38,047 nt of DNA. Origin: a virus. Positions 3 to 19,403 of this stretch are shown here, piece by piece. Numbering within the stretch: position 1 is the first letter of the stretch; every line of letters starts with the position of its first letter. Under the pieces are notes generated by a model. It saw only the letters and a list, made by a program, of their open reading frames with translations. It was not told where the DNA came from and ran no database searches. Both the position numbers and the translations under genes were made by a program. The stretch spans positions 1 to 38,047 of IMG/VR virus record IMGVR_UViG_3300025131_000153; one strand, 5' to 3'.

Positions 3-182
3 CAGCGGGTAGTAGATATTCTGGTCCGGGCGATTGAGGATAATGTCCAATCGGTAGTGCACACATCGCAAAACGGTAAAATGTATGCGATTTTAACCGC
101 TTATGATGCTGCTCTGGGTGCTACGATTGACGATGTAGAAAAGACGTTGACGGAAACAAACGGAAAACCAGGCAGCGAATAA
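3..182 (+). CDS. 3' end of an unidentified gene (partial)
   Basis: An open frame enters from the left edge and runs 59 codons to a TAA stop at 180-182. It is followed after two bases by the ATG of the next gene, so it probably belongs to the late/lysis transcript. The visible C-terminus is hydrophilic (ends KPGSE) and has no motif I recognise. By position it lies downstream of the tail fibre in a permuted genome, so a small fibre-associated or pre-lysis protein is possible, but this is only inference from order. Confidence 0.55.
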   Translation, partial: QRVVDILVRAIEDNVQSVVHTSQNGKMYAILTAYDAALGATIDDVEKTLTETNGKPGSE

Positions 183-184
183 TT

Positions 185-460
185 ATGACTCATCAGTGCA
201 TTAAAAATCAAGAGTGTCTGGCGGACTTTGGTAATCTTCGCGAGCGAACTGCTGTCATAGAAAGTCTCTTGGAGCAAAATACGCGAGCCTTGAAACGAAT
301 GGGAGGGCAACTTGACAAATTAACCACAGATTCTGTTCGCAAGACGGCTTGGGGCCGGGGCGCGTTCTTTGGGGCGCGGGTAGTGGTCGTTGGACTGCTA
401 CTGTTGGCGGGCGCAGGGCTTGATAAAGCGACTAGTTTCATCTTTTCTGCGTTGAGTTAA
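185..460 (+). CDS. Small protein with N-terminal helix and C-terminal membrane segment
   Basis: 91 residues. The N-terminal half is charged and likely helical or coiled-coil (LRERTAVIESLLEQ, about residues 18-31). A basic stretch (RKTAWGRGAFFGAR) is followed by one hydrophobic membrane segment (VVVVGLLLLAGAG, about residues 66-78). This N-out-helix plus C-terminal anchor layout occurs in many small phage proteins beside lysis genes, some annotated as holin-like, but one transmembrane segment does not prove a holin. It starts 2 bp after the upstream stop and ends 4 bp before the next ATG, so it is part of a tight late operon. Confidence 0.6.
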   Translation: MTHQCIKNQECLADFGNLRERTAVIESLLEQNTRALKRMGGQLDKLTTDSVRKTAWGRGAFFGARVVVVGLLLLAGAGLDKATSFIFSALS

Positions 461-464
461 GCCG

Positions 465-818
465 ATGAGATACAGATTCTGGCACTGGTTAATTGGCATC
501 CTTGTGATGGCTTTCTTATTAGCCTCCTTCGCAAACCATTGTCCGGCGGCGGGTGTCTGCCGGGAAGTCGCTGAGCTAGTGGCCGACATCGAGGCGCGCG
601 AGACAGACGAGGTGCAGTTCCGCTTTCTCGACGCCGTCGAGCGCGCGGCCTTCGCGGCTCGCACACGCCTGAACAATGCTGGCGACGTGGAGGTGCTGAC
701 GGCGCGCAAGGCTGACCCCACGGCCACGGTGCTGGTCGCGATCATCCGCGACGGCTGCGTCACCAGTGTGCGATTCTTCAAGCCACGATTCTTTGAGTTG
801 CCCTACGACTCGACATGA
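465..818 (+). CDS. Hypothetical protein with signal peptide or N-terminal anchor
   Basis: 117 residues. It begins with a short basic N-region (MRYR) and a hydrophobic segment (WLIGILVMAFLLASFA), and a plausible signal-peptidase site before the Cys-containing segment CPAAGVC. The rest is Asp/Glu/Arg-rich (EARETDEVQF) without a motif I know. It is likely exported or membrane-anchored. It sits between two membrane proteins in the lysis region, which suggests a role in host lysis or envelope interaction, but nothing specific can be assigned. It ends 29 bp before the next start. Confidence 0.6.
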   Translation: MRYRFWHWLIGILVMAFLLASFANHCPAAGVCREVAELVADIEARETDEVQFRFLDAVERAAFAARTRLNNAGDVEVLTARKADPTATVLVAIIRDGCVTSVRFFKPRFFELPYDST

Positions 819-847
819 CCACCATCTGTAGAACTAGGAGAGACAAC

Positions 848-1018
848 ATGGAATTGCTAAGAGGGAAAAAAACCTATATCGTTGCCGGGCTAATGATAGC
901 CGTGGGCGTTGTCAACGCTTTGGCCGGTGATGCCGCTGGCTGGAACACCGTCTGGGAACAGGCGCAGATTGTCCTCACCGGCCTCGGCCTCGCTGGCCTG
1001 CGCGCAGGTGTGCGCTAG
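848..1018 (+). CDS. Small membrane protein, possible holin
   Basis: 56 residues, starting at the ATG at 848 because an AGGAGA ribosome site lies 8-12 bases upstream; an in-frame ATG at 815 has no such site. The sequence opens with a basic cap (MELLRGKKT) and a hydrophobic span (YIVAGLMIAVGVVNALAG). After a short Trp-containing loop comes a second weakly hydrophobic span (AQIVLTGLGLAGL). Two spans, small size and position directly before spanins and endolysin fit a small holin or pinholin-like protein. The family is not recognised with certainty. Confidence 0.6.
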   Translation: MELLRGKKTYIVAGLMIAVGVVNALAGDAAGWNTVWEQAQIVLTGLGLAGLRAGVR

Positions 1019-1020
1019 CA

Positions 1021-1233
1021 GTGTGGCTGACGCTGTTGGGCGGCGTACTGTCGCTTGGCCGCAGTCTCGCGCGCATCGCGCATGACCGCCAGCTCCTGGA
1101 AGCTGGCGCGGCCAGGGCGATTGCTCGACACGCTACGACTGGGTTGGCAGCGGTGGCCGCAGCTCAGGCTGCTCGCCGTGGCGTCCGCCATGACGCTGCC
1201 AGCGTGTGTGATGACCCCGACAACCGGGACTGA
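1021..1233 (+). CDS. Putative inner-membrane spanin (Rz-like)
   Basis: 70 residues with a GTG start two bases after the previous stop. A hydrophobic N-terminus (WLTLLGGVLSLG) is followed by a long Ala/Arg helix, and the protein ends in DDPDNRD. That ending resembles a widespread group of Rz-type proteins in phages of Proteobacteria. Its reading frame is overlapped in another frame by a Cys-lipobox protein (1082-1348), which is the classical Rz/Rz1 arrangement. It would span the periplasm and help fuse inner and outer membranes at lysis. The call rests on length, tail motif and overlap. Confidence 0.65.
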   Translation: MWLTLLGGVLSLGRSLARIAHDRQLLEAGAARAIARHATTGLAAVAAAQAARRGVRHDAASVCDDPDNRD

Positions 1234-1348
1234 CAGCGTGTGCCTGGCGTTCGCGCCGATCACCTTCTCGGCCAGTGCCGACAGCACTGAAACCGTGCGT
1301 CAGATTCGTGAGCACAACGCCGCTTGGCGAGCTATCTGCGATGACTGA
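1082..1348 (+). CDS. Putative outer-membrane spanin lipoprotein (Rz1-like)
   Basis: 88 residues from the ATG at 1082; a TTG at 1055 in the same frame is an alternative start. A hydrophobic segment ends in LPAC, a plausible lipobox with Cys42 as lipidated residue. The mature part carries CLAFAPITFSASADSTETV and REHNAAW, matching the 'C...PI.fS..D...T.rqI..hN..w...C' pattern of many o-spanins. The gene overlaps the Rz-like gene in a +1 frame and overlaps the endolysin start by 8 bp. It is expected to sit in the inner leaflet of the outer membrane and pair with the i-spanin. Confidence 0.7.
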   Translation: MTASSWKLARPGRLLDTLRLGWQRWPQLRLLAVASAMTLPACVMTPTTGTDSVCLAFAPITFSASADSTETVRQIREHNAAWRAICDD

Positions 1349-1763
1349 CGCTTTGAATAAAGAGAAGTTGGTATTCGACCTGATAGCCGACGAAGGTATG
1401 GTGCTGGAGCCGTATCAGGACAGCGTTGATAAGCTGACCATCGGCGTCGGAAGAAATCTAGACGACAGGGGCATCAGCAAATCCGAAGCGATGTTCATGC
1501 TGGCCAACGACATTGAGATCGTCGAGGCGGAACTAGACGCACGGCTTGGGTGGTGGCGCGGTCTCCCCGACGATGCCCAACGTGCGCTGGCAAACATGGC
1601 GTTCAATATGGGAGTGCCGTGTTTGTTGACGTTTTCCCTCGCTCTGGGACATCTTGTGAACAGAGAGTTTAAACAGGCTGCGGATGAGTTTCTACGGAGC
1701 CGCTGGGCCGAACAAGTCGGCAACCGGGCTATCCGTGTAACAGATTTAATAAGGAACGCGTGA
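1341..1763 (+). CDS. Endolysin, T4-type lysozyme (GH24 muramidase)
   Basis: 140 residues, starting at ATG 1341. The N-terminus contains the GH24 catalytic signature Glu-8aa-Asp-5aa-Thr: E18 in DEGMVLEPYQD, D27, and T33 in KLTIGVG. It would cleave the N-acetylmuramic acid to N-acetylglucosamine bond of peptidoglycan. There is no signal or SAR segment, so export should depend on a holin. The length is slightly short for the family but contains the core (ALANMAFNMG and the C-terminal NRAIRVTDLI helix). The start overlaps the o-spanin stop, and its own stop overlaps the next ATG, indicating translational coupling in the lysis cassette. Confidence 0.93.
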   Translation: MTDALNKEKLVFDLIADEGMVLEPYQDSVDKLTIGVGRNLDDRGISKSEAMFMLANDIEIVEAELDARLGWWRGLPDDAQRALANMAFNMGVPCLLTFSLALGHLVNREFKQAADEFLRSRWAEQVGNRAIRVTDLIRNA

Positions 1764-1858
1764 TGGACAAAATTAAGTCTCTCCCTTGGAAGACTTTTTG
1801 CGTCTACGCCGTGATTTTCGTGGCGGGGTATCTTTCGAACTCTTACGGTCTTTTTTAG
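1763..1858 (+). CDS. 31-residue single-span membrane peptide
   Basis: A 32-codon frame whose ATG overlaps the endolysin TGA (sequence TGATG), so it is very likely translated by coupling. The peptide has a basic N-terminus (MDKIKSLPWK) followed by one hydrophobic span (TFCVYAVIFVAGYL) and a short tail ending in GLF. It is the last gene of the rightward lysis transcript, just before the 1876-1909 hairpin. It could be a holin, antiholin or lysis regulator, but no family is recognisable at this length. Confidence 0.5.
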   Translation: MDKIKSLPWKTFCVYAVIFVAGYLSNSYGLF

Positions 1859-1875
1859 ACCAGTCTATCGCGTCG

Positions 1876-1909
1876 TACCCACCCCGATATTCTTTATTCG
1901 AGGTGGGTA
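1876..1909. terminator. Hairpin between convergent operons, likely bidirectional terminator
   Basis: Arms TACCCACCCCGA (1876-1887) and TCGAGGTGGGTA (1898-1909) pair over 12 positions with a single C/A mismatch, closing a 10-base AT-rich loop. It lies 18 bp after the last lysis gene and about 70 bp beyond the end of the leftward helicase gene, where late and early transcripts meet. There is no long T-run on either side, so efficiency is uncertain. Confidence 0.6.
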
Positions 1910-1979
1910 TCGTCCACCACCTGTTGCGGGTGTCCGGTGCTCTACTAAAGATATCTACCATGCCACGTCCTTATACCCC

Positions 1980-3335
1980 CTACGCGTTTTGTATAGCATC
2001 AATGATACTCGTCGCTAGGTTTTGCTTGCGTTGAAGAGCCCCTATAACCTTCTTATCTAGGGTCGTTCCGACCAAATCAATATATGTGACTGGATAGTGC
2101 TGGCCGTGACGATGGTTTCGCGCCTCAGCCTGAACCCGTGCGTCCATGTCATAGGTGTTCTCGTAGAAGATGGTGGTATGGCACGGCATGTCCTTCGTGC
2201 CGAGCAACGTGTGTCCGTACTTTCCAGCTGTCAGCTGAGCGATCATCACTTGGTTCGTGTAATTATTGAACCCGCGCTTTTCCATGGCCTGAACCTCTTT
2301 ACCTTGATTACCAGTCAGACAGACGCCGTTTGGGAATCTCTTGGCCAGTAGATCGATCGACTTTTTATAGAACGCAAAGATTATGACCTTGGAATCCAGC
2401 TCGTCAACTATCTCCTCAGCCAGATTGAGCTTAGGGTTCTTCTTCTCGGAGATGATGTCGTGGGTGTCCCCCTGTTCGTCTATCACGAATCCGCCAGCAA
2501 TCTGCTGTAGCTTCATCATTTGCGTGATAACCATCGGAGCCGTGACAGTTTCGTCGTTAACGTTAATAACAAGTTCATCCAGCATGGCCGAGTATTGCTT
2601 CTGTTGATCCCTGTATAGTACATAGTTCCGGGTCGTATTGAGTGTCTCTGGCAGATCGGTCCAGTCTTTCTTCCTAGCTCTGAAAGCGTTGCCATCAATG
2701 AGCGTAGATAATTCATCTTGGTTCTTGGCCCCTACTATCTGTTTTCCAAGGTAGCCGCCCATGACGCAGAAGTGATTACGAAAGGCGTACTGGTTTTGGC
2801 CCTTAAGCTCCCCTATACACCGGAACTGGCCCCAAATGTCGAGTGCCGACTTGGTGATCGGCGCACCCGAAAGTATCCTAACATAGGAAGCCATAGCCGC
2901 CAGCCCAATCATGCGTCTGGTGCGCTTGGCCCTAGGATTCTTGACGTGGATTGATTCATCCAAGACGAGATACACACGATTCATACCCAATAGGTACTCT
3001 AGGTACTCGCCCCCCTTACCAATCAAAGCTTCGTAGTTGATCAGGAAGATTTTTTTAGGTCCTTCTTGATGGCGGGTCCTAGGCCAAATAGTCGGGTCAA
3101 ACCCAACTTCCCATTTCTCGGCTTCCTCAGCCCACACCGCTTTCAGAGACTGTGGACACACGACGATCATCGTATCTACTTCGTCCATTTCCATTAGGTG
3201 GATGAACTCGTTGTAGGCTGTGCTGGTCTTGCCTAGCCCCATTTCCATAAAGTAGCCGAATCCACGCCGACCATTTGCCTTGTCCAATGCCGCACTCTGA
3301 ACGTCGTAAGGCTTGCCTTTTAGATACCACTTCAT
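1980..3335 (-). CDS. SNF2/DEAD-like superfamily 2 helicase
   Basis: 451 residues from the ATG at 3335, which overlaps the datZ TGA (ATGA). The frame is open further upstream, but that would overlap datZ more deeply. SF2 motifs are in order: Walker A MEMGLGKT (about 30-37), DExx box LVLDES (about 124-128, Ser instead of the usual Ala/His), motif III LSGAPI (155-160), and motif VI QAEARNHRHGQ near residue 410, the typical SNF2 form. It is a DNA-dependent ATPase probably used to translocate on duplex DNA in phage replication or recombination. It is the last gene of the leftward transcript. Such helicases are common in small phage replication modules. Confidence 0.9.
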   Translation of the reverse strand: MKWYLKGKPYDVQSAALDKANGRRGFGYFMEMGLGKTSTAYNEFIHLMEMDEVDTMIVVCPQSLKAVWAEEAEKWEVGFDPTIWPRTRHQEGPKKIFLINYEALIGKGGEYLEYLLGMNRVYLVLDESIHVKNPRAKRTRRMIGLAAMASYVRILSGAPITKSALDIWGQFRCIGELKGQNQYAFRNHFCVMGGYLGKQIVGAKNQDELSTLIDGNAFRARKKDWTDLPETLNTTRNYVLYRDQQKQYSAMLDELVINVNDETVTAPMVITQMMKLQQIAGGFVIDEQGDTHDIISEKKNPKLNLAEEIVDELDSKVIIFAFYKKSIDLLAKRFPNGVCLTGNQGKEVQAMEKRGFNNYTNQVMIAQLTAGKYGHTLLGTKDMPCHTTIFYENTYDMDARVQAEARNHRHGQHYPVTYIDLVGTTLDKKVIGALQRKQNLATSIIDAIQNA

Positions 3336-3892
3336 GATAGGCCAAATTCCGTTAGTAATCGGGTTCGGGTGGTGTTGCCAGTGTGCTTGCACAATTCCTC
3401 TAATAGAGCCTCGTCCATCTTACCAGCCGCCTCGTTCAATTTTATGGCTACTTGCCCCATCACTGGAAGAACGGTTTGGTTGCCCATATTGAGTTCATCC
3501 ACCAAGTACATCATCGCTTCGAATAAGTCCGCGATGTGGACTACTTCCTTAGCAAAGCCGGACACCCGGCAACAGGGATTGACAGTCATAATACTCCGCG
3601 CCATAGACCCCGGTGCTGATTCTATTTTTTCGTTGTTTGTAGTGGTTGCTTTCTTATAGGGGGTGGGTATGTCGCCGCTCACCATTTCTCCGAAGTCGTG
3701 CACCAATGCATACTGGGTCACCCATTGAACGTCGACGTCCTTCATACCTAGGAATTTAGCTATATAGGTGGCGTAGAGCGCGACATAGTATGAATGTTCA
3801 GCCACCGATTGCTGGCGGATGGTTCGTATGATGCCCCACCGTGGCACGTGCTGAAGTACCCTAGTCTGTGGTTGTAGTACGGTGCTTTCCAT
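3332..3892 (-). CDS. datZ: DatZ-like HD-domain dATP triphosphohydrolase
   Basis: 186 residues, with ribosome site AGGGG before ATG 3892. The HD/YfbR-type fold signature is clear: RW (18-19), then SVAEHS with His33, the catalytic HD pair H65-D66 followed by E69 and D74, and the later Asp in HIADLFEA (D122). DatZ enzymes of 2-aminoadenine phages have about this length and cleave dATP to deoxyadenosine and triphosphate, removing adenine from the nucleotide pool. E. coli YfbR 5'-nucleotidase shares these motifs, so the motif alone would permit YfbR-like activity. The purZ gene two genes upstream in the same operon makes DatZ the better call. Confidence 0.85.
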   Translation of the reverse strand: MESTVLQPQTRVLQHVPRWGIIRTIRQQSVAEHSYYVALYATYIAKFLGMKDVDVQWVTQYALVHDFGEMVSGDIPTPYKKATTTNNEKIESAPGSMARSIMTVNPCCRVSGFAKEVVHIADLFEAMMYLVDELNMGNQTVLPVMGQVAIKLNEAAGKMDEALLEELCKHTGNTTRTRLLTEFGLS

Positions 3893-3905
3893 TTCAATCC
3901 CCTAT

Positions 3906-4100
3906 CTAGAATGGGTATATAAGTAGGTTTCTATCCACTACCTCTTCTACGTTTTCATAAAACATCTTGCCTGTGGGTACGTGTTCCCACATCTTCGATA
4001 TAGTACGATTACCGTCCATCCATTGTCCGTGCTCTTCAAAGTCCTCAGGGTAGACCTCTATTTCGCGGGTGTACTCGCCTTTGATTTCGATTTTAGGCAT
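3906..4100 (-). CDS. 64-residue hypothetical protein between purZ and datZ
   Basis: The ATG at 4100 overlaps the purZ TAA by 8 bp, and the stop lies 13 bp before the datZ start, so it is co-expressed with both. The protein is acidic with beta-rich character: PKIEIKGEYTREIEVYPEDF, then a region with three aromatic or Trp positions (HGQWMDGNR, SKMWEHVPTGK), ending in LLIYPF. There is no Cys cluster, signal peptide or membrane span. I do not recognise a family. Its location suggests an accessory role in Z-nucleotide metabolism or simply filler in the operon; the sequence does not decide. Confidence 0.7.
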   Translation of the reverse strand: MPKIEIKGEYTREIEVYPEDFEEHGQWMDGNRTISKMWEHVPTGKMFYENVEEVVDRNLLIYPF

Positions 4101-5154
4101 CGTAGCTAATTTCCCCCCACGGCACGACCTCCACGTCCTCGACGTTAGGACCCCATCCGTGCAACATGTGTTGTGGCATCCCCAACATTGAGATGCTCAT
4201 CTTTTGTATCAATAGAGTCAACTTGGCGAGGGACACTTCATCCTGTACGTAGTTGCAGAAATTTAGGAAGTATACCGAGGGGCGATTGTCCAGCATCGCA
4301 TCGACCATCTGGTGGTTGCTCCACGTGAAAATCCGGCGCACTCGCTGGGTCACGGTGGTCAACTCCTCGTCCACGTCCAGATCGTTAAAGCTGATTTCGA
4401 CCTGATCGGGGTAGACATCGCCGGAATATCCTAGGCCCGGTATACTCCCCACCCGGATAGGATAGGTCCTATTGGCCATAGCCACTTGTCCTAGGAATGA
4501 TGGGTGTATATTGGCATCGTTCATCCCGGCACCCACGGTACAGTTCCTGGACGTGCAATATGGATAGAATGGGCTGTTGAGCGACAGACTGTACCCCTGC
4601 GGCACTTCCATTGACCCCCTTGCCCCCCTTTCCGACATCATAAGATTCAGATTGAGATTATTCACCATATGGCCAATATCATCATTATTCACGGCCAGCC
4701 TAGCCGTGCGGCGTACCTTGTTGGACAATGCTTGACCGACGCCCTTCCGGGTGCTTGAAATCTTGGTCGCCTGAGACTCGTCTTCCATCTCGGCATCGAT
4801 GTCCTCTTGGTGAATAATGCTGGCATTAGGGTGAATGGTTACTCGCCGCTCGTCCACCCCGCACGTTTTCATCTCCTTAAAGAGTAAATCAGGATTGATA
4901 ATAGAACCAGCATTTAGATAAATCTCGCAGTCATCCTGTATCACCCCGAACGTCGGCAGGTGAAAGCAACAAAAATCTTGCCTATCGTCCTTGAATTTGG
5001 TCCAGTGACCAGCATTAGCCGCCGCATTGGTGGTGGCGAAGTCCACTTGATTCTGGGGCTGGCTGGCGAGGTACGCCGCTAGTAGTCCTTTGCCGGTCGA
5101 TCCGAATTGCCCATCCACGAGGACGGAGCACTTACCTTTTGCTATGTACTTCAT
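4093..5154 (-). CDS. purZ: PurZ, N6-succino-2-amino-2'-deoxyadenylate synthase (2-aminoadenine pathway)
   Basis: 353 residues, an adenylosuccinate-synthetase homologue shorter than cellular PurA (about 430). The N-terminal GTP/ATP loop reads VDGQFGSTGKG (residues 13-23). In PurA the matching segment is GDEGKG, with a catalytic Asp; here Ser19 takes that place. This is the diagnostic change described for PurZ, which uses dGMP instead of IMP. The conserved His is kept in NAGHW (His50). The predicted reaction is dGMP + Asp + NTP giving succinylated 2-amino-dAMP, which host PurB converts to dZMP. The gene overlaps mazZ by 23 bp and is followed by the 64-residue gene and datZ. The same Ser argues strongly against this being a host-type PurA. 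Confidence 0.93.
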   Translation of the reverse strand: MKYIAKGKCSVLVDGQFGSTGKGLLAAYLASQPQNQVDFATTNAAANAGHWTKFKDDRQDFCCFHLPTFGVIQDDCEIYLNAGSIINPDLLFKEMKTCGVDERRVTIHPNASIIHQEDIDAEMEDESQATKISSTRKGVGQALSNKVRRTARLAVNNDDIGHMVNNLNLNLMMSERGARGSMEVPQGYSLSLNSPFYPYCTSRNCTVGAGMNDANIHPSFLGQVAMANRTYPIRVGSIPGLGYSGDVYPDQVEISFNDLDVDEELTTVTQRVRRIFTWSNHQMVDAMLDNRPSVYFLNFCNYVQDEVSLAKLTLLIQKMSISMLGMPQHMLHGWGPNVEDVEVVPWGEISYDA

Positions 5155-5431
5155 CTTTTTGCCTATCTGACCAAATCAAAAATATAGCACAGCAGATCGC
5201 GTGTGCCAAGTGATGTTTACCACTTTTAGGGTCGATCTTCTCCCCCAACTTCCACGACATAATGTGCCGCATCATCGCATCAAAGTATCGGTTCCAGTCC
5301 TTGCACTTCTGCCAGTTGTCCACCCCGTATTGTCGGGCTCCCTGATCGAAAATCTGGACCACTTCTATTAGTATTTCAAAAGGAAACAAGTGCCACCTCA
5401 ACTTTCCTTGATCGTCTTTCTTATGCTTCAT
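5132..5431 (-). CDS. mazZ: MazZ-like dGTP/dATP pyrophosphohydrolase (DUF5664-type)
   Basis: 99 residues. The pattern GARQYGVDNWQK (31-42), then NRYFDAMMRHI (47-57), DPKSGKHHLAHAICC (67-81) and a hydrophobic helix matches the DUF5664 / dATP-dGTP diphosphohydrolase family as I remember it. In several PurZ phages this family supplies dGMP by cutting PPi from dGTP. Here it directly precedes purZ with a 23-bp overlap, so product and user would be made together. The start at 5431 overlaps the nuclease stop (ATGA). A separate MazG-type gene at 9752-10060 could instead, or in addition, carry this activity. Confidence 0.75.
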   Translation of the reverse strand: MKHKKDDQGKLRWHLFPFEILIEVVQIFDQGARQYGVDNWQKCKDWNRYFDAMMRHIMSWKLGEKIDPKSGKHHLAHAICCAIFLIWSDRQKDEVHSKR

Positions 5432-5838
5432 CCTACCCCCTTCCTGTAATCATCCGACCAGTATAACACAGCCTTGACAATTTCGGCTATATCCCACGTC
5501 TTGCCCGTGTACTGAATCATCCAACAATTTTCCGGCGCAACGGCAATCTTGGTATCTGGATCAGCCCCTATGAACAGTTGGTGTACGGTGCCTTCCTTCT
5601 GATAGACTGCCCAGCCGCACGGCATACCCGCTTGTTGAATTCGCTTCATAGTCTCCCTCTGTATAGGACTTAGGTTCAACTTCTTCATCTTGCATTCCAC
5701 CATGACTGCTTCCATGGCGTGTAGCTTGATAAACAAATCCGGGGTCCCGGCTTGTTGCGGGTTGCCGATTTTACGCGCCCATCCTTTGACCCGTAATGCC
5801 TCTTTAACGATCCGCGCTTGTACCTTTAACTCATCCAT
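5428..5838 (-). CDS. VRR-NUC domain nuclease
   Basis: 136 residues from ATG 5838; a frame extension to 5871 runs into the polymerase gene and lacks a ribosome site. The PD-(D/E)xK core is visible: GTPDLFIK with Asp34, then VECKMKK with Glu48 and Lys50, followed by a helix SPIQRETMKRIQQAG that matches the VRR-NUC layout. Stand-alone VRR-NUC proteins in phages are thought to be structure-specific nucleases (Holliday-junction or branch processing). Position between DNA polymerase and mazZ, overlapping both by a few bases, suggests a replication or recombination role. The C-terminal WMIQYTGKTWD region has no known motif. Confidence 0.85.
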   Translation of the reverse strand: MDELKVQARIVKEALRVKGWARKIGNPQQAGTPDLFIKLHAMEAVMVECKMKKLNLSPIQRETMKRIQQAGMPCGWAVYQKEGTVHQLFIGADPDTKIAVAPENCWMIQYTGKTWDIAEIVKAVLYWSDDYRKGVG

Positions 5839-7630
5839 AGCTGGCCTCGCCCCAGTTCTTGCCCTCGCCAATGTCCACGTCCATCGGCACTAGTAATTCG
5901 ACGCCACAGCCGGGACCATAGTCCGTCATGATTTCCAATGCGTGTTCATAGATGTGTCGGTCCTTTTCCTTAAACTGGAAGTCGATCGCATCGTGCACCG
6001 ATAGAAGCATATGCACCGTATCGCCTTCTGACTCAAGGTACTCGTCTATCTCCACCATCGCGTTCTTGATGATGTCGGCGTTGCCGCATTGTAGCAGTCG
6101 ATTCACCGCCTTGTACGACATATCCTTGCCCCCGGTGAAGTCCAGTCGGGCTCTGCGCCCCAGCAAGCTGGTCACGTACCCTCGTCGCTTCATCACCTTG
6201 GCGGCGTGTTTCTGAAAAGGCTTTAGTTCTGGCATGTTGGCAAAGTATTGATCGTACATCGCCTCACCTACTATTCTCTCGACTCCCAACTCCTGGATTA
6301 GCTTGTCCTTGCCCATGCCGGTGATCAGGCCTTGATTCAGTCTCTTGCCTGACGTCCGATCAATGTTTGCCGCTTCCGCCACCGCTGTATGAGCGTCGAT
6401 AACTGGGTCAGAAAGATAACCACGTACGAGTACCGAACACCCTGCATAGTGGGCCAACAGCCGGGGCTCACATTGTGAGTAATCGACACTGGCCCACACC
6501 ATGCCCTTGTCAGGAACGAACACCGCCCGAAACAACTTTCCAAGCTCCTCGTTTCTTTTAGGCACTTGTTGCATATTGGGCCGTGAGGAACTAAGTCTTC
6601 CAGTGACAGTACCGTACTGATCTGACCTAGACTGATTGAACTCTGTATGAATTCTGCCATTGTACAAGTGTTGACCCATTGGCGTAATGAACGAATTAAG
6701 TAGGTTACCATATTTCCTCGCGGCCACAACCCTTCTCCCTAACTCGGTAGTTACTAACCAATCCTCAGCGAATGATGGGTTGCCCTTCTCAGTTTGTGGG
6801 TAGTCGATTATACCGGCGTCGTCAAATAGTTTCTTCATCTGCGTCGAGGACCTAAGGTTGATCCCCTCAGGTAGGACTTCCATGGCCTTGTCCAGTCGCT
6901 TCTTAATTTCAACGGTGACGTTAGCCAGTCGCTCCTCGTCCACCTTCACGCCCCGCACCATCATGCGATGAAGGGTACGGATACACCGGCACTCGATGTT
7001 GTGAATTTGCCTCAGGCCCTGATCGTCAAGGTCCTTTTGTTGCTGTTGCCACAGAGCCCATGTCGCGATTCCATCCCCCATGGCGTAATCAGTCCCTTGG
7101 GGGTCATCGCCGCTGAGTTTCCAAAAGACCCCCATCTGCTTCGATGACGGCTGGCCCCCGAATTTATCCGCTAGGTACTCATATAGGGGCTGGCCTCGCT
7201 TGGCCGTCACCTTGGCGTCGATGCAACAATTTTCCAGCGAGTATGATTTGCGATGCTCGTTGATCAGAGCGGCGTTGATCATCGTGTCTTCATAGGTACA
7301 GGTCGGAGTCGGCACTCCAGCACGGTGCATGAACTTTAGATCAAAGGCGAGATTGTGGCCGATTATGTGAGTTGGCTTCTTGGCCAGAGCATCACGCAGG
7401 TCCTGCTCAAATGGGTGCGTATCTATTTTCTTCAGGGTATCCTTGGACGGCGATCGGGCACCCAGGAAATTCCCGCCTTGATGACGTATTGGAATATAGT
7501 AGGTGTCCATTTCAGCGGGGCCAACGGTGATGACGTAGCCGACAATGTAGTTGGTCTTCCAGTCAAGGCCAGAAGTCTCGACGTCGAGCACTACATTGTC
7601 GGAGTCAACGATACGGTCAAGGACTTCCAT
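5831..7630 (-). CDS. dpoZ: Family A DNA polymerase with 3'-5' exonuclease (DpoZ-like)
   Basis: 599 residues. The exonuclease domain has D16/E18 (LDVETSG), D97 (HNLAFD) and Y182/D186 (YAMGD). The polymerase domain has the thumb/palm motif TGRLSSSRPNMQQVP (343-357), motif A DYSQCEPR (383-390) and motif C VHDA (545-548). No 5'-nuclease domain is present. The O-helix reads RTSGKRLNQGLITGMG (425-440): the Arg and Lys of family A are kept, but the positions equal to E. coli Phe762 and Tyr766 are Gln433 and Thr437. Motif C has Ala where Glu is usual. It is the likely replicative polymerase and probably copies with dZTP; polymerases linked to purZ have been named DpoZ. Confidence 0.93.
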   Translation of the reverse strand: MEVLDRIVDSDNVVLDVETSGLDWKTNYIVGYVITVGPAEMDTYYIPIRHQGGNFLGARSPSKDTLKKIDTHPFEQDLRDALAKKPTHIIGHNLAFDLKFMHRAGVPTPTCTYEDTMINAALINEHRKSYSLENCCIDAKVTAKRGQPLYEYLADKFGGQPSSKQMGVFWKLSGDDPQGTDYAMGDGIATWALWQQQQKDLDDQGLRQIHNIECRCIRTLHRMMVRGVKVDEERLANVTVEIKKRLDKAMEVLPEGINLRSSTQMKKLFDDAGIIDYPQTEKGNPSFAEDWLVTTELGRRVVAARKYGNLLNSFITPMGQHLYNGRIHTEFNQSRSDQYGTVTGRLSSSRPNMQQVPKRNEELGKLFRAVFVPDKGMVWASVDYSQCEPRLLAHYAGCSVLVRGYLSDPVIDAHTAVAEAANIDRTSGKRLNQGLITGMGKDKLIQELGVERIVGEAMYDQYFANMPELKPFQKHAAKVMKRRGYVTSLLGRRARLDFTGGKDMSYKAVNRLLQCGNADIIKNAMVEIDEYLESEGDTVHMLLSVHDAIDFQFKEKDRHIYEHALEIMTDYGPGCGVELLVPMDVDIGEGKNWGEASYG

Positions 7631-8099: not shown

Positions 8100-8939
8100 C
8101 TAGAACGCATCCTCTTCGGTTGAGTCGGACTCGTCTTTGTCCATCGTCTCTTCGTCTTTGATTGCAAAGCCCTTGGCGGAGAAGTGATCGTACATCTCCT
8201 TGTACTTGGGTGCGTCGGCTTCGCTGACGAGCATGGGCTCTGGCCCCTTTTTGCCCTTGACATTTACGCCTTGAAAGCTCCAGTTAAAGTAGCTCTCGTT
8301 GTTGGCGTTTTTGTCCTTCTTGCTCGACATGTCGAAATAGCGTGACCACGAGGGCAACCGATTGATCGCCAGCTTGGACACGAACTGTTGGCCCACCTTA
8401 AACGAAGACCGTTGGAGTGAAATGACGGCTGGGCTCAAATCCAGATGGTCCGGAAACATTGCGATAATGTTGATCATCCGGGTTGCGGCTGGGTAAGAGT
8501 TGCTATCATTCGGGTCCATCGACCCGAATTGATCAAGTCCGCCCCTCTGGACGGTCTTGCCGGTGTTCCAAATGACCTTCTTCCCGTTGTCGAGTTTCAC
8601 CTCGAAGTCCATATCGGGGCGGTCCCAGTGAACACCATCATCGGCACGGGCAAGTATCCCGCCGCCGTCTTTGCGCGGTCGCCACAAAAGGACGGACTGC
8701 GACACGTACACCGGCACCATTTGGATTGTGTCGCCCAACGTGGACTCCGCAACCGTGTGCCAGAACTCGCCAGCCCTTTCCCCATCGTCCACCACCTCAG
8801 GGCTCAGACCCTGCAGGAGTTTGATACGTGGAACGATAGTCAGGTCCGACACGTTCTCCGTGCCTTCCCCTGCGTGGCCCGTGAGATAATCGGGTATCGC
8901 GACCTCAGTCGATTTCTTTTTCGCTACTGCTTTTCCCAT
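8100..8939 (-). CDS. Putative ssDNA-binding protein with acidic C-terminal tail
   Basis: 279 residues, with ribosome site AGGAGA 10 bases before ATG 8939. The N-terminus is Lys-rich (MGKAVAKKKST). The body contains PRIKLLQGLSPEV, a GEFWHTVAESTLGD segment and Trp/Tyr-rich beta stretches. The tail is strongly acidic and ends in an aromatic residue (DESDSTEEDAF), the hallmark of SSB-type proteins such as T7 gp2.5 and bacterial SSB, where the tail contacts the polymerase and other partners. It lies within the replication operon, followed by a hairpin that could raise its mRNA level. A general phage protein family of this type is familiar, but its function is usually only predicted. Confidence 0.6.
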   Translation of the reverse strand: MGKAVAKKKSTEVAIPDYLTGHAGEGTENVSDLTIVPRIKLLQGLSPEVVDDGERAGEFWHTVAESTLGDTIQMVPVYVSQSVLLWRPRKDGGGILARADDGVHWDRPDMDFEVKLDNGKKVIWNTGKTVQRGGLDQFGSMDPNDSNSYPAATRMINIIAMFPDHLDLSPAVISLQRSSFKVGQQFVSKLAINRLPSWSRYFDMSSKKDKNANNESYFNWSFQGVNVKGKKGPEPMLVSEADAPKYKEMYDHFSAKGFAIKDEETMDKDESDSTEEDAF

Positions 8940-9434: not shown

Positions 9435-9762
9435 CTCTAGGTTCTCCTATCTGAACTTGGTAAAAACCCCTTAGTTTCTTGTCGTATTTAAGGAACGACA
9501 CGGGTAGCAGTCGCTCTTCCGACAGCCAGTACACCACTTGTGCAACGACACAGCTGTCTCCCATTGGGACGAAATGATCATTGTCGGGGTCTAGATCATC
9601 GAGCATATCGTCCAGAATTTGGTTGATCCTGTTGGTGTATATGTAAACGTCATCGGGGTAGAACCCGCGACTGAACAGCACCACTGGCACTCCGTAGTCC
9701 TCAAGCTGTGAAAGGTCGTGCTTGGAGCTTGGGGGCTGGAGCAGGAAGCATCTATTTGTCAT
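9403..9762 (-). CDS. Hypothetical protein, replication operon
   Basis: 119 residues from the ATG at 9762, preceded by GGAG at a 10-base spacing; a TTG one codon upstream is an alternative. It overlaps the MazG-type gene by 11 bp and the next gene by 32 bp. The sequence has FSRGFYPDDVYIYTNRINQ and a long acidic stretch (DDMLDDLDPDND), followed by VPMGDSCVVAQVVYWLSEERLLPV. No catalytic motif, Cys cluster or membrane span is visible. Position suggests early expression with nucleotide metabolism genes. I do not recognise a family. Confidence 0.7.
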   Translation of the reverse strand: MTNRCFLLQPPSSKHDLSQLEDYGVPVVLFSRGFYPDDVYIYTNRINQILDDMLDDLDPDNDHFVPMGDSCVVAQVVYWLSEERLLPVSFLKYDKKLRGFYQVQIGEPRDANPTNQRLV

Positions 9763-10060
9763 CAAGGTTTAGCTCCAGTTGGTCGCGTCTGAGAACGCTG
9801 GACAGGATGAGTGCGTAATTGGCCACGTCTGCCGCTTCCCTATGGACATCTTGGTGGCTTCCATTTTCGATCACGTCGATCAACTCTATCATTTCTTCCG
9901 ACATCATATCATAGGCTTGGTCCACAGTGATGTCTTCCCAGTGGCCTTTGCCCCGGTGGTAGAACAGCTTAGCCACCATCTCCATGATAAATCGCTCAAT
10001 GTCGAGTTTGAGATGATCGATTTCGGGCGGCAGGGTTATGTCGACTTGAAACGTGTGCAT
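9752..10060 (-). CDS. MazG-type NTP pyrophosphohydrolase
   Basis: 102 residues. The all-alpha NTP pyrophosphohydrolase signature is present: E55-E56-x-x-E59 in SEEMIELIDVIE, then E75-x-x-D78 in REAADVANY, the four-acid magnesium site of MazG/HisE/dUTPase-like enzymes. It would release PPi from a (d)NTP. The preceding HRGKGHWEDIT segment is typical of MazG-like phage proteins. In a Z-genome phage it could be a second MazZ (GTP/dGTP) or a house-cleaning or dUTP/ppGpp-type hydrolase; substrate cannot be read from sequence. It has its own strong promoter just upstream (10085-10114) and a TAGATAGGGG leader before ATG 10060. Confidence 0.85.
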   Translation of the reverse strand: MHTFQVDITLPPEIDHLKLDIERFIMEMVAKLFYHRGKGHWEDITVDQAYDMMSEEMIELIDVIENGSHQDVHREAADVANYALILSSVLRRDQLELNLDDK

Positions 10061-10114: not shown

Positions 10115-10438
10115 TACGTCTTCACCTATAGTGACTGTGGCTCCGCGCCGGATTTGACCGCGTAAAACGTTGCCTAGTAGCATCCGCCGCTGTCCGTTGT
10201 TTAAGTGCTTCCATTTTTTGATGGCAACCATGTTGGTGTCAGCCACTGTCTGGAACTTCACCTCGTCCAGACGGCCCGTTTCCTCGTCCACAAGGTACTT
10301 GGCGAGAACATCAGATAGACTATCGCCACAGGTTCCTGATCGTCCGTACTTATCCATAAACTTCTTGGTCATAACATCTGGCATGTTGGCAACAAAACAC
10401 GCATCACCGGCATCTGTCAAGTCAGTCCATTTACTCAT
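10100..10438 (-). CDS. Hypothetical protein with LGNVLRG C-terminal motif (paralogue of 15374-15841)
   Basis: 112 residues; ATG 10438 overlaps the primase-helicase stop (TAATG). The C-terminus KHLNNGQRRMLLGNVLRG is nearly matched by DHLNFGMQRMNLGNVLRG in the 155-residue early protein at 15374-15841, so the two are paralogues sharing a C-terminal module of about 35 residues. The N-terminal part differs (TDAGDACFVANMPDVM). The shared module occurs in other phages as I remember, without known function; its basic, helical nature could suit nucleic-acid binding. Confidence 0.75.
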   Translation of the reverse strand: MSKWTDLTDAGDACFVANMPDVMTKKFMDKYGRSGTCGDSLSDVLAKYLVDEETGRLDEVKFQTVADTNMVAIKKWKHLNNGQRRMLLGNVLRGQIRRGATVTIGEDVLTSD

Positions 10439-12750
10439 TAGAAGTCCAGGTTCCTCTCGTCAAACATCACTGGCGGCTTGTAGTGGGCGGCGATTTCCTG
10501 CTCACCCGACGTGTGCCACGTCTTCATGTTGCGAATGCACCAGATTTTGGCTTGCTTGTCACCGATCCGCTTCGCCCCCATGTTGAGGAACCCTAGACGC
10601 TTGAGGGTTTGCGTGAGCCCAATAGGGTTGATACCCCGAAAGCCAGGGGCAGTGTTGATCGCCGCCGCGAGGTCAGTCGAGTTGACCAGATCACACTCCA
10701 TCGGCCACTCGGTGTTAGAAACACTCTCAAGGAGAAAGGCGTCCAAAGGCCTCGCCGTTTCATCAACCATATCCTCGAAATGCTTGGTCTTAGGCGGCGG
10801 AGCTTCGGGGCTGAAATCCGAGAGGTCGAATTCGGTGGCCCAGCGGTATATACCGGAAAGGTTATCTTTGGTCCATGTGAACAGCTTTTTGTAGTAGGCA
10901 GGTGATTCCGGCGTTGCGTCCGACATCCAGACCCAGAACCTGCGCGAGTCCTTGTTGAGGATGATGGCGTTGCTGTGGTTCGTGGTACAGAAGAAGTTTG
11001 CTGGGTTGTTCGATACATAGCTATCGGTCCTCATCTTTCGGATTGTGACACTATCCTCGCTCAACATCGGCTTCATGCGGTTGGCTATTTCCAACCTGCC
11101 GCCAGCCATCAGCTCCTCAATGAAGACCACCTCTGACTTGGACAGCCAATCGTTGTACTGCTCCTTGAGCTGGTCCGTGCCGACTTCCATCACGTGGTCG
11201 TTACCTATTATGCCACGGAACACTTGCTTTAGGTAGCTCTTACCTGTACCCTCTTTCTGGGACCCGATCACCACGGCGTGACGAATGCGACGTCCGGGAT
11301 TCGCTAGGACGTGCGCGATACAGGAAGCGAGGTGCTTGTACCCCTTCTTGTCCCCGTCAACCAAATACTTAAGGTGGTCGGTCCAAATTTTGACGTCCAC
11401 TTCGTCCTTGGATGGGAGAATGCGTCGCGGTTGCCACGTGTTGAAGATACGTCGTCCTTTGTACATCGACATTTGCTCTTCGACGCCGGGGACGAACTCG
11501 CAAGTGTCCACCATCCTGAGGTCTGTACTTTCAAGCAACAGCTTGGCGATGTTCTTGTTGGGGGCCAGCGACGCGTGGGCGTTCTTGATCGCGCTGGCTG
11601 TGAAGTGTAGGTCTTTGCCGGGGTGATAAAAGCTCTCTTCAAATGCGACATAGATGTACTCCTTGAGTAACTCGCTTATGTCGATCTTGGCGCGGTGTCC
11701 ACGTGCGAACCCCTTGTTGATGGCACCGTCGATCAGCGTGTCCAAGAAGTCATTAGACTTGTAGCGTTCAATCTCCGCCGCTCCGCGATCGGGTCCAGCG
11801 TCGGCGTCGTCTATGTAGGAACGGACCAGACGCTTGATTTCGCCACGTGCGTTGGACTCTGGCTCTCCGTGGAAGTTTATCCACGACGCGATGCCCTGCA
11901 TAATTGGGTGGTGGAACCCATCCTTGTCGTCGCCAATGCGGCCTAAGAACCTCATATAACGACGGTCGTCACTTTCGTCCTCGCTTGGCACCACCCATTC
12001 GCCAGACACATTCACCACCTCGTTTGTGCCTTTTAGAATGCCCGATCTTTGAGAGAGAGGGTCTTCCACCCCATCTAGAATAGGTGCCGCAGTATAGTGA
12101 GGTTGAATCGGGTTGAATAGTGCCGGGTCCACCAGCCTTCGTCCAAACACGCCGATGAACGACTCGTTGAACGTGTTAAAGTACCGCTTGAGGTCTTCGT
12201 CGCTGATCGGCACGTCTAGCACGAACGTCAGGTGACAGCTGATCGTGTAACCCTTGAATCCCGTACTGGACGAGTATCGCCAATGGCACGACACGTCTTG
12301 GAACACCGCAGGTAGCAGATCGATGACGTCACGAATCGTTGTTTCCGGGTCACCGGGGTTGAACTCGTGCCGCAGTATCTTGGATTTCTTGTTGGCTGGC
12401 AAACCATCGATATCCAAGGTCACCCATCGCCGCGATGCCGGTGCCACGGTGCCGTCGCCTGTCGTACGTAAAATACGTCGTACGTCGCAGGATAGGTCTG
12501 TCGTCTTTGTGGGATGACCGCGCACGATGAAGGAATACGGCTTGTGTTGTAATTTTTCGAGCATTTCGAAAAATTCATCAGCGTCGTCAAAACGAACCGT
12601 CTTGAAAGCAAAGTTCTTCGCCACGCGATGGCTGACGGTCTTACTCTTCTTGATCTGCTTGGTGCAGATCGCCTTTGGAACTGGTGTGAGGATGAGGAAC
12701 TCGTGTGGTACGGCGTCCTCTAAGGTTTCGGCTTCGATCGTTCTACCCAA
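10438..12750 (-). CDS. Primase-polymerase (AEP) fused to SF3/D5-like helicase
   Basis: 770 residues from a TTG start at 12750 with AGGGGG upstream. The N-terminal part looks like an archaeo-eukaryotic primase: the DxD pair D113/D115 in VTLDIDGLP and His173 in TISCHLTF, with SSTGFKG between. The C-terminal part is an SF3 helicase: Walker A GSQKEGTGKS (496-505), Walker B VVFIEE (541-546), and motif C in FFCTTNHSNAI followed by RRFWVW. Such fusions prime and unwind DNA at phage and plasmid origins. Cyanophage S-2L, another 2-aminoadenine phage, replicates with a PrimPol, so a Z-tolerant primase would fit. A promoter candidate lies at 12782-12810. Confidence 0.9.
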   Translation of the reverse strand: MGRTIEAETLEDAVPHEFLILTPVPKAICTKQIKKSKTVSHRVAKNFAFKTVRFDDADEFFEMLEKLQHKPYSFIVRGHPTKTTDLSCDVRRILRTTGDGTVAPASRRWVTLDIDGLPANKKSKILRHEFNPGDPETTIRDVIDLLPAVFQDVSCHWRYSSSTGFKGYTISCHLTFVLDVPISDEDLKRYFNTFNESFIGVFGRRLVDPALFNPIQPHYTAAPILDGVEDPLSQRSGILKGTNEVVNVSGEWVVPSEDESDDRRYMRFLGRIGDDKDGFHHPIMQGIASWINFHGEPESNARGEIKRLVRSYIDDADAGPDRGAAEIERYKSNDFLDTLIDGAINKGFARGHRAKIDISELLKEYIYVAFEESFYHPGKDLHFTASAIKNAHASLAPNKNIAKLLLESTDLRMVDTCEFVPGVEEQMSMYKGRRIFNTWQPRRILPSKDEVDVKIWTDHLKYLVDGDKKGYKHLASCIAHVLANPGRRIRHAVVIGSQKEGTGKSYLKQVFRGIIGNDHVMEVGTDQLKEQYNDWLSKSEVVFIEELMAGGRLEIANRMKPMLSEDSVTIRKMRTDSYVSNNPANFFCTTNHSNAIILNKDSRRFWVWMSDATPESPAYYKKLFTWTKDNLSGIYRWATEFDLSDFSPEAPPPKTKHFEDMVDETARPLDAFLLESVSNTEWPMECDLVNSTDLAAAINTAPGFRGINPIGLTQTLKRLGFLNMGAKRIGDKQAKIWCIRNMKTWHTSGEQEIAAHYKPPVMFDERNLDF

Positions 12751-17628: not shown

Positions 17629-18954
17629 ATGAAAAAGATAACTATACCTTATAGACCAAGACCAATCCAGAAGGACCTACATACCAATATGGCAAGGTTC
17701 TCAGTGGTGGTCTGTCATCGCAGGTTCGGTAAGACAGTGATGGCCGTAAATAAGCTGGTCAAGGACCTGATCAACGCTAAACAAAAAGGACTAGCACGCG
17801 CCCGCGCCGTGTATGTGGCCCCCTTATTTAGGCAAGCCAAGCAGATTGCATGGGACTACGCCAAATTCTACTGTGAGAAATTACCAGGGTATAAAGCTAA
17901 TGAATCTGAGCTTAGAATTGACTTTTTGGACGATTGCCGCTTGTTTCTTATCGGAGCTGATAACCCTGATTCTATTCGGGGTATTTATGCAGATTCCGTT
18001 GTACTAGACGAGTATGCGCAGATGAACCCCAAGATGTGGTCGGAAGTCCTACGTCCCGCGCTGACGGATCGCAAGGGCTCGGCCATGTTCATCGGGACCC
18101 CCAAGGGGAAAAACGTCTTCCACGACCTGTATAAGCATGGGCTGGACCCTGATAATGTGGACTGGACCAGCCATTTGTTCAAGGCCAGCGAAACTGGATA
18201 CGTGGATGAGGGGGAACTTCTAGCCGCCAAGAGCGACATGACGGATGAAGAGTATGCACAGGAGTATGAGTGTTCGTGGGAAGCCGCAATCAAAGGGGCC
18301 TATTATGGCAAGCTCATGGAAATCGTCGCCAACGAGAAACGGATTAGGTCCGTCCCGTGGGAATCTACTCTCGAAGTGCACACCGCTTGGGACCTTGGCA
18401 TCGATGATTCCACGGCTATTTGGTTTTATCAAACGGCTGATAGGGAAATTAGGCTTATAAATTTCTACGAATCTAGCGGCGTGGGGTTGGATCACTACGT
18501 CAAATATTTAAAGCAACAGCATTATGTATACGGGAATCATTTCCTACCCCATGATGTAAAGGTCAAGGAATTGAGTACTGGACGGTCCCGTTTGGAAATG
18601 TTGCGGGGGCTAGGTATTAATGCGAGAGTAGTGCAGAAAATTCCTGTAGACGACGGCATCAACGCCGCTCGATCGCTCCTGCCCCGGTGCTACTTCGACG
18701 CCAAGAAGTGTGAGAAGGGGATTGAGGCTATGCGCCAGTACAAGACCGACTGGGACGACAAGACGCAGACCTTTAGACAACGCCCCAAGCACGATTGGAC
18801 CAGCCATGCGGCGGACGCCTTTAGGTATCTGGCAGTGTCCTTTAGAGACACGGGCAGTGGTCGTCGCCCTACCCGCACTATTTCTGAATACGATGTATTC
18901 GATCCCTACGAAAAAGGACCCCGGCAGACCATAGCGGAGGGGACGAATTGGTAA
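17629..18954 (+). CDS. terL: Terminase large subunit (packaging ATPase/nuclease)
   Basis: 441 residues. The ATPase part has a Walker A-like VVCHRRFGKT (27-36), Walker B VVLDE (124-128) and coupling motif GTPKG (156-160). The nuclease part has WDLGIDDS with Asp255/Asp259-260 and the late acidic site in HDWTSHAADAFRYL (about 407-420). It cuts the concatemer and pumps DNA through the portal. Length is at the low end of the family (usually 450-600) but all motifs are there. It overlaps the following GNAT gene by 7 bp. Confidence 0.95.
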   Translation: MKKITIPYRPRPIQKDLHTNMARFSVVVCHRRFGKTVMAVNKLVKDLINAKQKGLARARAVYVAPLFRQAKQIAWDYAKFYCEKLPGYKANESELRIDFLDDCRLFLIGADNPDSIRGIYADSVVLDEYAQMNPKMWSEVLRPALTDRKGSAMFIGTPKGKNVFHDLYKHGLDPDNVDWTSHLFKASETGYVDEGELLAAKSDMTDEEYAQEYECSWEAAIKGAYYGKLMEIVANEKRIRSVPWESTLEVHTAWDLGIDDSTAIWFYQTADREIRLINFYESSGVGLDHYVKYLKQQHYVYGNHFLPHDVKVKELSTGRSRLEMLRGLGINARVVQKIPVDDGINAARSLLPRCYFDAKKCEKGIEAMRQYKTDWDDKTQTFRQRPKHDWTSHAADAFRYLAVSFRDTGSGRRPTRTISEYDVFDPYEKGPRQTIAEGTNW

Positions 18955-19403
18955 TTCGGGCCATGGTGCCCGGAGACGAATCCGCTCTGATCGATATGGG
19001 CCACAGGATGTGGGAAGAATCGGACAGATTCAACCGCCACCCCCTGAATATTGATAAGCTCAAGCAGTTGGCCAATTGGGTACATACAGTCCCTATGGTG
19101 GAGTGTTTTGTGGCTGAGAAGGACGGCACCATTATAGCAATATGGGTGGGGGCCATAAATCCCTTATGGTACTCCGATGACACCACTGTAACAGACATAG
19201 TGTTCTACGTCGATAAGCAACACCGTGGGGGTTCGTCGGCATGGAGATTGATGATCGCCGCAGGCACTTGGGCGAAGGCTATGGGGGCCACGGAAATTAG
19301 TATTGGGCTCAGTTCCGGGATTGACACTGAGAAGGTCACGTGTTTTTTTGAAAAAATGGGATACTCGCATGGTGCGAGTGTCATGACAAAGGAGATGGGT
19401 TAA
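18948..19403 (+). CDS. GNAT-family N-acetyltransferase
   Basis: 151 residues from a TTG start at 18948: GGAGGGG lies 5 bases upstream and the extra residues VIRAMVPGDE form the first GNAT strand. The core shows strand 4 (VTDIVFYVDKQHRGG) with the acetyl-CoA loop QHRGGSSAWRL, and the end of strand 5 with FFEKMGY. It would transfer an acetyl group from acetyl-CoA to an unknown amine. GNAT proteins next to terminase or portal genes are seen in other podoviruses, so it may modify a virion or a host protein. Confidence 0.88.
   Translation: MVIRAMVPGDESALIDMGHRMWEESDRFNRHPLNIDKLKQLANWVHTVPMVECFVAEKDGTIIAIWVGAINPLWYSDDTTVTDIVFYVDKQHRGGSSAWRLMIAAGTWAKAMGATEISIGLSSGIDTEKVTCFFEKMGYSHGASVMTKEMG

Follow-up and report, generated by a model that had tools for sequence, protein, structure and literature searches.

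A nearly complete, rearranged gene set for a predicted 2-aminoadenine genome in an HTVC010P-like podovirus

Phage DNA in which 2-aminoadenine (Z) takes the place of adenine is a known kind of system, and the base is known to counter bacterial defences. Phage phiVC8 and Alteromonas phage ZP6 carry PurZ, MazZ-2, DatZ and the polymerase DpoZ-2; phages resembling Wayne and Ghobes carry a PurZ0 system with DutZ, DmtZ and DpoZ-1. In ten phages mazZ-2 lies between purZ and datZ (PMC8342488), a habit and not a definition. The mcp, TerL and portal of the podovirus ZP6 resemble those of HTVC010P (PMC8515928), so an HTVC010P-like virion has been seen with a Z cluster before. Here we analyze IMG/VR virus record IMGVR_UViG_3300025131_000153 (positions 1–38,047; 38,047 bases, 52.6% G+C), hereafter the window. 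By inference it belongs to a Z-genome phage whose Z gene set is nearly complete and whose cluster is rearranged: very probably, its operon makes the deoxynucleoside triphosphate of Z (dZTP) and removes dATP during infection, and the genome is copied with Z. What differs in the window is the combination of an HTVC010P-like virion with a replication module of the type found in Ochrobactrum phage vB_OspP_OH (MT028492; hereafter OH).

The left third of the window is mainly a minus-strand replication operon, and the right half is a plus-strand virion module. The following genes are central to the predicted pathway.

3332–3892, minus strand: DatZ-type HD dATP triphosphohydrolase, 186 amino acids, with PHROG and PDB matches
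4093–5154, minus strand: PurZ-type synthetase, 353 amino acids, with Ser19 for the catalytic Asp and Trp51 inserted in GH(W)T
5132–5431, minus strand: stand-alone DUF5664 protein (dATP/dGTP diphosphohydrolase family), 99 amino acids, PF18909
5831–7630, minus strand: family A DNA polymerase with 3'-5' exonuclease, 599 amino acids, E value 2.2e-64
9752–10060, minus strand: MazZ-2 homologue (MazG-like, predicted dGTP pyrophosphohydrolase), 102 amino acids, displaced upstream

All open reading frames (ORFs) of the cluster as first delimited in a preliminary description of this DNA are intact. That description had placed purZ, datZ and the DUF5664 gene in one overlapping minus-strand operon by a family A polymerase, and the coordinates agree: purZ and the DUF5664 gene share 23 bp, the DUF5664 gene and a VRR-type nuclease gene 4 bp, and the nuclease and polymerase genes 41 bp. 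A second IMG/VR contig (L003, 5,741 bp; other loci are likewise cited by L number) is 100% identical over window positions 117–5857, so a frameshift or chimera within the cluster is unlikely.

The synthetase carries the motif DGQFGSTGKG, in which Ser19 occupies the place of the catalytic Asp13, a site where PurZ has Ser or Gly. It matches the NCBIfam PurZ model NF038379 (E value 8.5e-68) and the PHROG family “2-aminooxy adenylosuccinate synthetase” (1.3e-56), and its top PDB match is phiVC8 PurZ (1.6e-41), all in keeping with the PurA homologue bearing Ser19 (GSTGKG) that had been described at the outset. The alignment shows the PurZ-type motifs FLNF.NY (FLNFCNY, as in phiVC8), ELTTVT (in a loop ELTTVT..VRR) and PIRVG, with Ser in every row of the PurZ clade versus Asp in eight of eight PurA reference rows, which come from E. 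coli and metagenome-assembled genomes (MAGs). A tree of PurZ and PurA references had been proposed as a check. In this tree, built by a quick method, the window groups with OH and 40 other rows in a 42-row clade (Shimodaira–Hasegawa-like approximate likelihood ratio, SH-aLRT, 99), which lies within the PurZ side (96) beside PurZ of phiVC8, S-2L and SH-Ab 15497 (98); PurZ0 occupies a separate branch and PurA stands apart (99). By motifs and tree position the window protein is a PurZ-type synthetase, neither PurA nor PurZ0, and is predicted to form succino-dZMP from deoxyguanosine monophosphate (dGMP). Trp51, which separates His from Thr in the GHT motif, occurs in the window and in L025–L029 and in no other row aligned; in S-2L PurZ the stretch around this motif touches the triphosphate. 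A scan with the single PurZ protein returned an identical contig only, and further relatives came from scans with alignments.

Two other sets of PurZ- or PurA-like proteins were also noted. MAG contigs labelled Clostridia, Bacilli and Mycoplasma (L109–L125) form a tight PurZ-like group, those aligned carrying GSCGKG, and no DatZ, MazZ or DpoZ-type polymerase was found nearby. Ser-type PurA homologues with GSEGKG, branching near the base of PurZ and PurZ0, lie on two conjugative rhizobial plasmids, Sinorhizobium medicae pMl5 and Agrobacterium rubi pW2_73_2 (L142:7995-9035 and L143:2443-4056).

The neighbouring HD hydrolase, in which DatZ-type motifs had also been recognized, matches the PHROG family “dATP triphosphohydrolase” (3.7e-25) and has S-2L DatZ as its top PDB match (1.7e-11). 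Of 15 positions checked, all taken from PMC8065100, 14 are retained, including the HD metal ligands and the equivalents of R19, W20, I22, P79 and K81. Ile22 and Trp20 of DatZ keep out 2-amino purines and ribose, Ile22 acting against the 2-amino group (PMC8065100).

The third enzyme had been placed in the cluster as a DUF5664/MazZ-type protein. The DUF5664 part of that name holds (PF18909, dGTP_diPhyd_N; 1.2e-32, 112.2 bits versus a gathering score of 27), and the MazZ part does not, the two being different families; the MazZ-2 homologue lies at 9752–10060, outside the interval then considered. DUF5664 as MazZ was accordingly rejected, and a free-standing DUF5664 gene is not to be taken for MazZ. 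The DUF5664 family is present in 874 phage records, and the nearest relatives of the window protein are in Erwinia phage MIF8 (51%) and Roseobacter phage CRP-821 (47%), which are not known as Z phages. Because the DUF5664 protein of Wayne alone hydrolyses dATP and dGTP, as does the DUF5664-DUF550 fusion of SH-Ab 15497 (PMC12884076), such a protein can contribute to a Z pathway. Like the Wayne protein, that of the window would be expected to prefer dATP. The fusions of SH-Ab 15497 and PMBT28 are about 33–34% identical to the window in their DUF5664 part; unlike them, the window protein is free-standing and lacks DUF550.

ORF 9752–10060 gives a weak MazG match in Pfam. It is 38% identical to its best phage relative, OH p33, which in turn matches MazZ-2 of ZP6 and phiVC8, so that the link from the window to phiVC8 MazZ-2 passes through OH and ZP6. 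Four acidic residues (E56, E59, E75 and D78) are invariant in 25 relatives, and the predicted structure is all-helical, with a mean predicted local distance difference test score (pLDDT) of 91.5. A profile of the family finds MazG-like chains, AF_0060 first (4e-12); the top matches of a fold search are MazG-like as well, none at E < 0.001. At L045:9983-11425 a single ORF of about 481 amino acids fuses PurZ to MazZ-2, which ties the MazZ-2 domain to the Z pathway. By homology and the four conserved acidic residues, ORF 9752–10060 is a MazZ-2 homologue and a predicted pyrophosphohydrolase.

Together these genes suggest the following pathway. MazZ-2, perhaps aided by the DUF5664 enzyme, would convert dGTP to dGMP; PurZ would join dGMP and Asp to give succino-dZMP; host PurB and kinases would carry this product to dZTP; and DatZ, perhaps also with help from the DUF5664 enzyme, would destroy dATP. 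From this pool the neighbouring family A polymerase, which has a proofreading domain, would then copy the genome and place 2-aminoadenine opposite T. Virion DNA would probably contain Z and may then resist restriction. The core of the preliminary description, a 2-aminoadenine pathway based on PurZ and DatZ, thus finds support in homology, in active-site residues, in the phylogeny and in the conserved gene neighbourhood. Its statement that PurZ, DatZ and MazZ are sufficient was too strong: expression of the S-2L triad in E. coli exchanged about 12% of the adenine in plasmid DNA and 4% of that in the chromosome (PMC8342488).

The arrangement of the cluster departs from that of its relatives. The usual order in the PurZ clade is polymerase, an optional nuclease, purZ, mazZ-2, datZ and an SNF2 helicase gene, with DatZ present in 65 and MazZ-2 in 65 of the 85 PurZ-clade loci counted. 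In the window mazZ-2 is absent from the gap between purZ and datZ and lies 4.6 kb upstream of purZ, between genes for a primase and a gp34-like protein. The remaining genes of the module are these.

1980–3392, minus strand: SNF2-type helicase, encoded last in the operon, retained downstream of datZ throughout the clade
3906–4100, minus strand: predicted ORF for a 64-amino-acid protein in the usual place of mazZ, also found in relatives
5428–5871, minus strand: VRR-NUC-like nuclease, 147 amino acids (PHROG endonuclease 1.6e-10; Pfam VRR_NUC 8e-4, under the Pfam cut-off)
8100–8939, minus strand: Pam3 gp34-like replication-module protein (PF23977, 7.7e-37), with a conserved place upstream of the polymerase
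10438–12750, minus strand: primase/helicase protein, homologue of OH p22, which is annotated as a primase-polymerase in OH

An upstream mazZ-2 together with a free DUF5664 gene preceding purZ is seen in the window, L025, L026, L028 and L029; in L027 the DUF5664 part is seen and the locus stops short of the place of mazZ-2. These five IMG/VR contigs (L025–L029) form a group with the window that also shares an HTVC010P-like capsid and the Trp insertion in the GHT motif of PurZ. In L051 and L060 a DUF5664 gene occurs with mazZ-2 downstream. The 64-amino-acid protein recurs in L025–L027, L029 and L066, and weakly in L045, L057 and L058. Elsewhere in the clade, ten loci (L069, L081, L083, L084, L088, L089, L092, L093, L096 and L100) keep PurZ, MazZ-2 and the SNF2 helicase and have no DatZ detected in its usual place, which may reflect loss or a diverged substitute. 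Five large phage contigs of 83–287 kb (L037, L054, L056, L067 and L075) have a clade-type PurZ and no DatZ or MazZ in the stretch examined; the polymerases of L037 and L056 are of the ordinary Phe/Tyr type.

OH shares with the window the PurZ and polymerase clades (41% and 34.5% identity, respectively), the MazZ-2 family, and the same helicase and primase families in similar order. It differs in several ways: mazZ-2 of OH sits in the gap separating purZ from datZ, a DUF5664 gene was not detected, the polymerase has Met and Ser at the Gln and Thr sites of the window, and the capsid is unrelated by capsid search. PhiVC8 and ZP6 have the same three enzyme families, whereas their PurZ is about 35% identical and their mazZ-2 is not displaced. 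The PurZ0 system likewise includes a Ser-type synthetase and, in some members, a free DUF5664; in contrast, its motif is GSEAKG, it falls on separate branches in the PurZ and polymerase trees, and the Vulture DutZ and DmtZ profile finds no match in the window.

The polymerase is the least conventional part of the set. To our knowledge only two DpoZ clades have been described, and the means by which they tell Z from A has yet to be worked out; attempts to obtain phiVC8 DpoZ in a ternary complex reportedly failed. The window enzyme retains the equivalents of the catalytic Asp705, Asp882, Arg754 and Lys758 as well as the acidic residues of the exonuclease, and its O-helix has Q433 and T437 where E. 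coli has F762 and Y766. Of the marks that characterize DpoZ of phiVC8 and ZP6, all those tested are missing, namely the O-helix Phe (phiVC8 F459), Leu455, insertions 2 and 3, and Gly548, a position without Gly in the clade of the window enzyme. Insertion 1 occurs in the window enzyme and in non-Z phages too. With these marks missing, the enzyme is not assigned to either known DpoZ clade: a family A polymerase does adjoin the cluster, as had been noted, and the name DpoZ, which the preliminary description did not use, would be unsupported. A fold search matches Klenow and phiVC8 DpoZ about equally.

The polymerase tree places the window in a third clade (bootstrap 99, SH-aLRT 100), distinct from DpoZ-1, from DpoZ-2 and from the non-Z phage polymerases sampled; the separation of this clade from the DpoZ-2 rows used here is well supported. 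A published tree has the polymerases of PurZ phages together in a single DpoZ-2 group (PMC12884076). An origin separate from that of DpoZ-2 was considered and not established, since an approximately unbiased (AU) test did not reject a single group made of DpoZ-2 and the third clade (p 0.52). Members of the third clade mostly have Thr or Ser at the O-helix Tyr; early-branching members keep Tyr despite PurZ, L057 is a clade member with Tyr, and two members without PurZ, L146 (66 kb) and L150 (41 kb), both on long branches, have Tyr in one case and Asn in the other. Over all rows, which are non-independent and include several near-identical contigs (E. coli and one doubly fetched contig being counted once each), Tyr is found in 80 of 81 polymerases without PurZ nearby versus 10 of 78 with PurZ, the remaining PurZ-associated enzymes having Thr, Ser or Asn (51) or Phe (17). 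Absence of PurZ was judged within contigs that are possibly partial; a PurZ search of 23 such records found none, and these may be fragments. At the position of E. coli E883, Glu occurs in 21 of 21 non-Z rows, whereas the Z groups mostly have Ser or Ala. By the tree, the Tyr changed about five times and PurZ presence about four times; only about two of the independent pairs are informative (sign test p 0.5), and the association falls short of significance because independent changes are too few.

These observations bear on a restricted version of the pathway proposed above, in which the enzymes work and the polymerase does not discriminate, so that Z content is set by the pool through DatZ, DUF5664 and MazZ-2, much as with the non-selective PrimPol of S-2L, and replacement is perhaps incomplete. 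The score of 331.6 bits versus a DpoZ cut-off of 500 and the missing DpoZ signatures favour this version, Klenow itself is non-discriminating (PMC8342488), and the extra dATP/dGTP hydrolase would compensate; against it stand the changed O-helix Tyr in most PurZ carriers of the clade, versus 1 of 81 sampled PurZ-free polymerases, and the replacement of Glu at E883. We lend it slightly less than even credence. Whether the window polymerase selects Z over A appears evenly poised. Thr in place of the large aromatic O-helix residue beside the nascent base pair could give a looser site, or could tune the site to the stronger Z:T pair; an equivalent change, Y714S, is known as a laboratory mutant of the Bacillus polymerase (3hpo). 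That this third lineage has its own route to Z-over-A selectivity, through Thr or Ser at Y766, Gln or Met at F762 and Ser or Ala at E883 in place of the Tyr-to-Phe change and O-helix insertion, is a tentative and on balance doubtful proposal.

Several points weigh against a Z genome. The NF038379 score of the synthetase, 228.7 bits, is under the cut-off of 300, which is a threshold for naming and not a biological trait. The polymerase, devoid of DpoZ marks, is by sequence alone closer to Klenow than to phiVC8 DpoZ. The DatZ residue K116, strictly conserved in the published set and in contact with phosphate (PMC8065100), is His in the window, Ser in L032 and Lys in the other rows checked; as K116 is one contact, the window hydrolase is likely still DatZ-type. 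No clade isolate with measured Z was found, and the OH paper shows no digestion or modification test of OH DNA. The support consists of genes, homology, active-site residues, phylogeny and neighbourhood, and every reaction is inferred.

A rival explanation is a partial or transient use of Z, with nucleotide scavenging and poisoning of host DNA while virion DNA stays mostly A. The roughly ten clade members without detected DatZ are consistent with such a role, as is the finding that the S-2L triad alone gives partial replacement and is toxic in E. coli (PMC8342488); the window, however, has PurZ, DatZ and MazZ-2 beside its own polymerase, as do phages known to carry Z, and we consider this explanation improbable. 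An ordinary PurA in a nucleotide-salvage cluster, with an incidental Ser and inosine monophosphate (IMP) still the substrate, matches the annotation of OH, the closest isolate, as plain nucleotide salvage (PMC7139368) and is very improbable given the tree placement, the Ser/Asp division between PurZ and PurA rows and the adjoining DatZ.

The virion genes point to a different kinship from that of the replication module. They include the following.

17629–18954, plus strand: terminase large subunit, HTVC010P-like
19768–21411, plus strand: portal or head-tail connector, like that of Pelagibacter phages
22604–23485, plus strand: major capsid protein, HTVC010P-like

The capsid is common to the window and L025–L029 at 72–79% identity; in the other 25 records searched, a capsid of this type was found only in Skadi-4 (56%) and, weakly, in the L045 record. 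Among isolates, Pelagibacter phages of the HTVC010P type come closest (capsid 55–58%, portal 50%, terminase 45–50% identity). Unlike the window, Skadi-4, the one checked, has neither a detected PurZ nor a family A polymerase nor any further Z gene. Megablast finds no DNA-level match among known phages for the first 25 kb of the window. Of the initial description as a T7/BPP-1-like podovirus, the podovirus part holds, T7-like applies loosely through tail-tubular-type proteins, and BPP-1 shows no likeness among the best matches. The host is probably not Pelagibacter, because the G+C content of the window contrasts with 31.5% in Skadi-4, and the source is probably marine, judging from HTVC010P kinship. 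An acetyltransferase-like gene (18948–19403; PHROG 1249, 1.8e-25) lies between the terminase and portal genes, and at 34975–38047 a tail-fibre-like ORF, in which blocks like VDDTTDSTSGTTGSIHTDGG and GLILTGQGSTSDITVKNDADGT recur, runs off the end of the contig.

As far as the open-licence literature was searched, the third polymerase clade with Thr or Ser, the displaced mazZ-2 with a free DUF5664 gene, and the Trp insertion in PurZ are new. The findings add further podoviruses, HTVC010P-like and apparently marine, to those linked with the Z system. They also draw attention to a large uncultured clade, with OH as its one cultured member, that offers natural contrasts of Tyr, Thr, Ser and Asn at one active-site residue beside PurZ. 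Such contrasts in related polymerases make the question of selectivity testable by residue swaps. If the proposed route to selectivity is true, a single active-site position would have been changed in three lineages of Z-phage polymerases.

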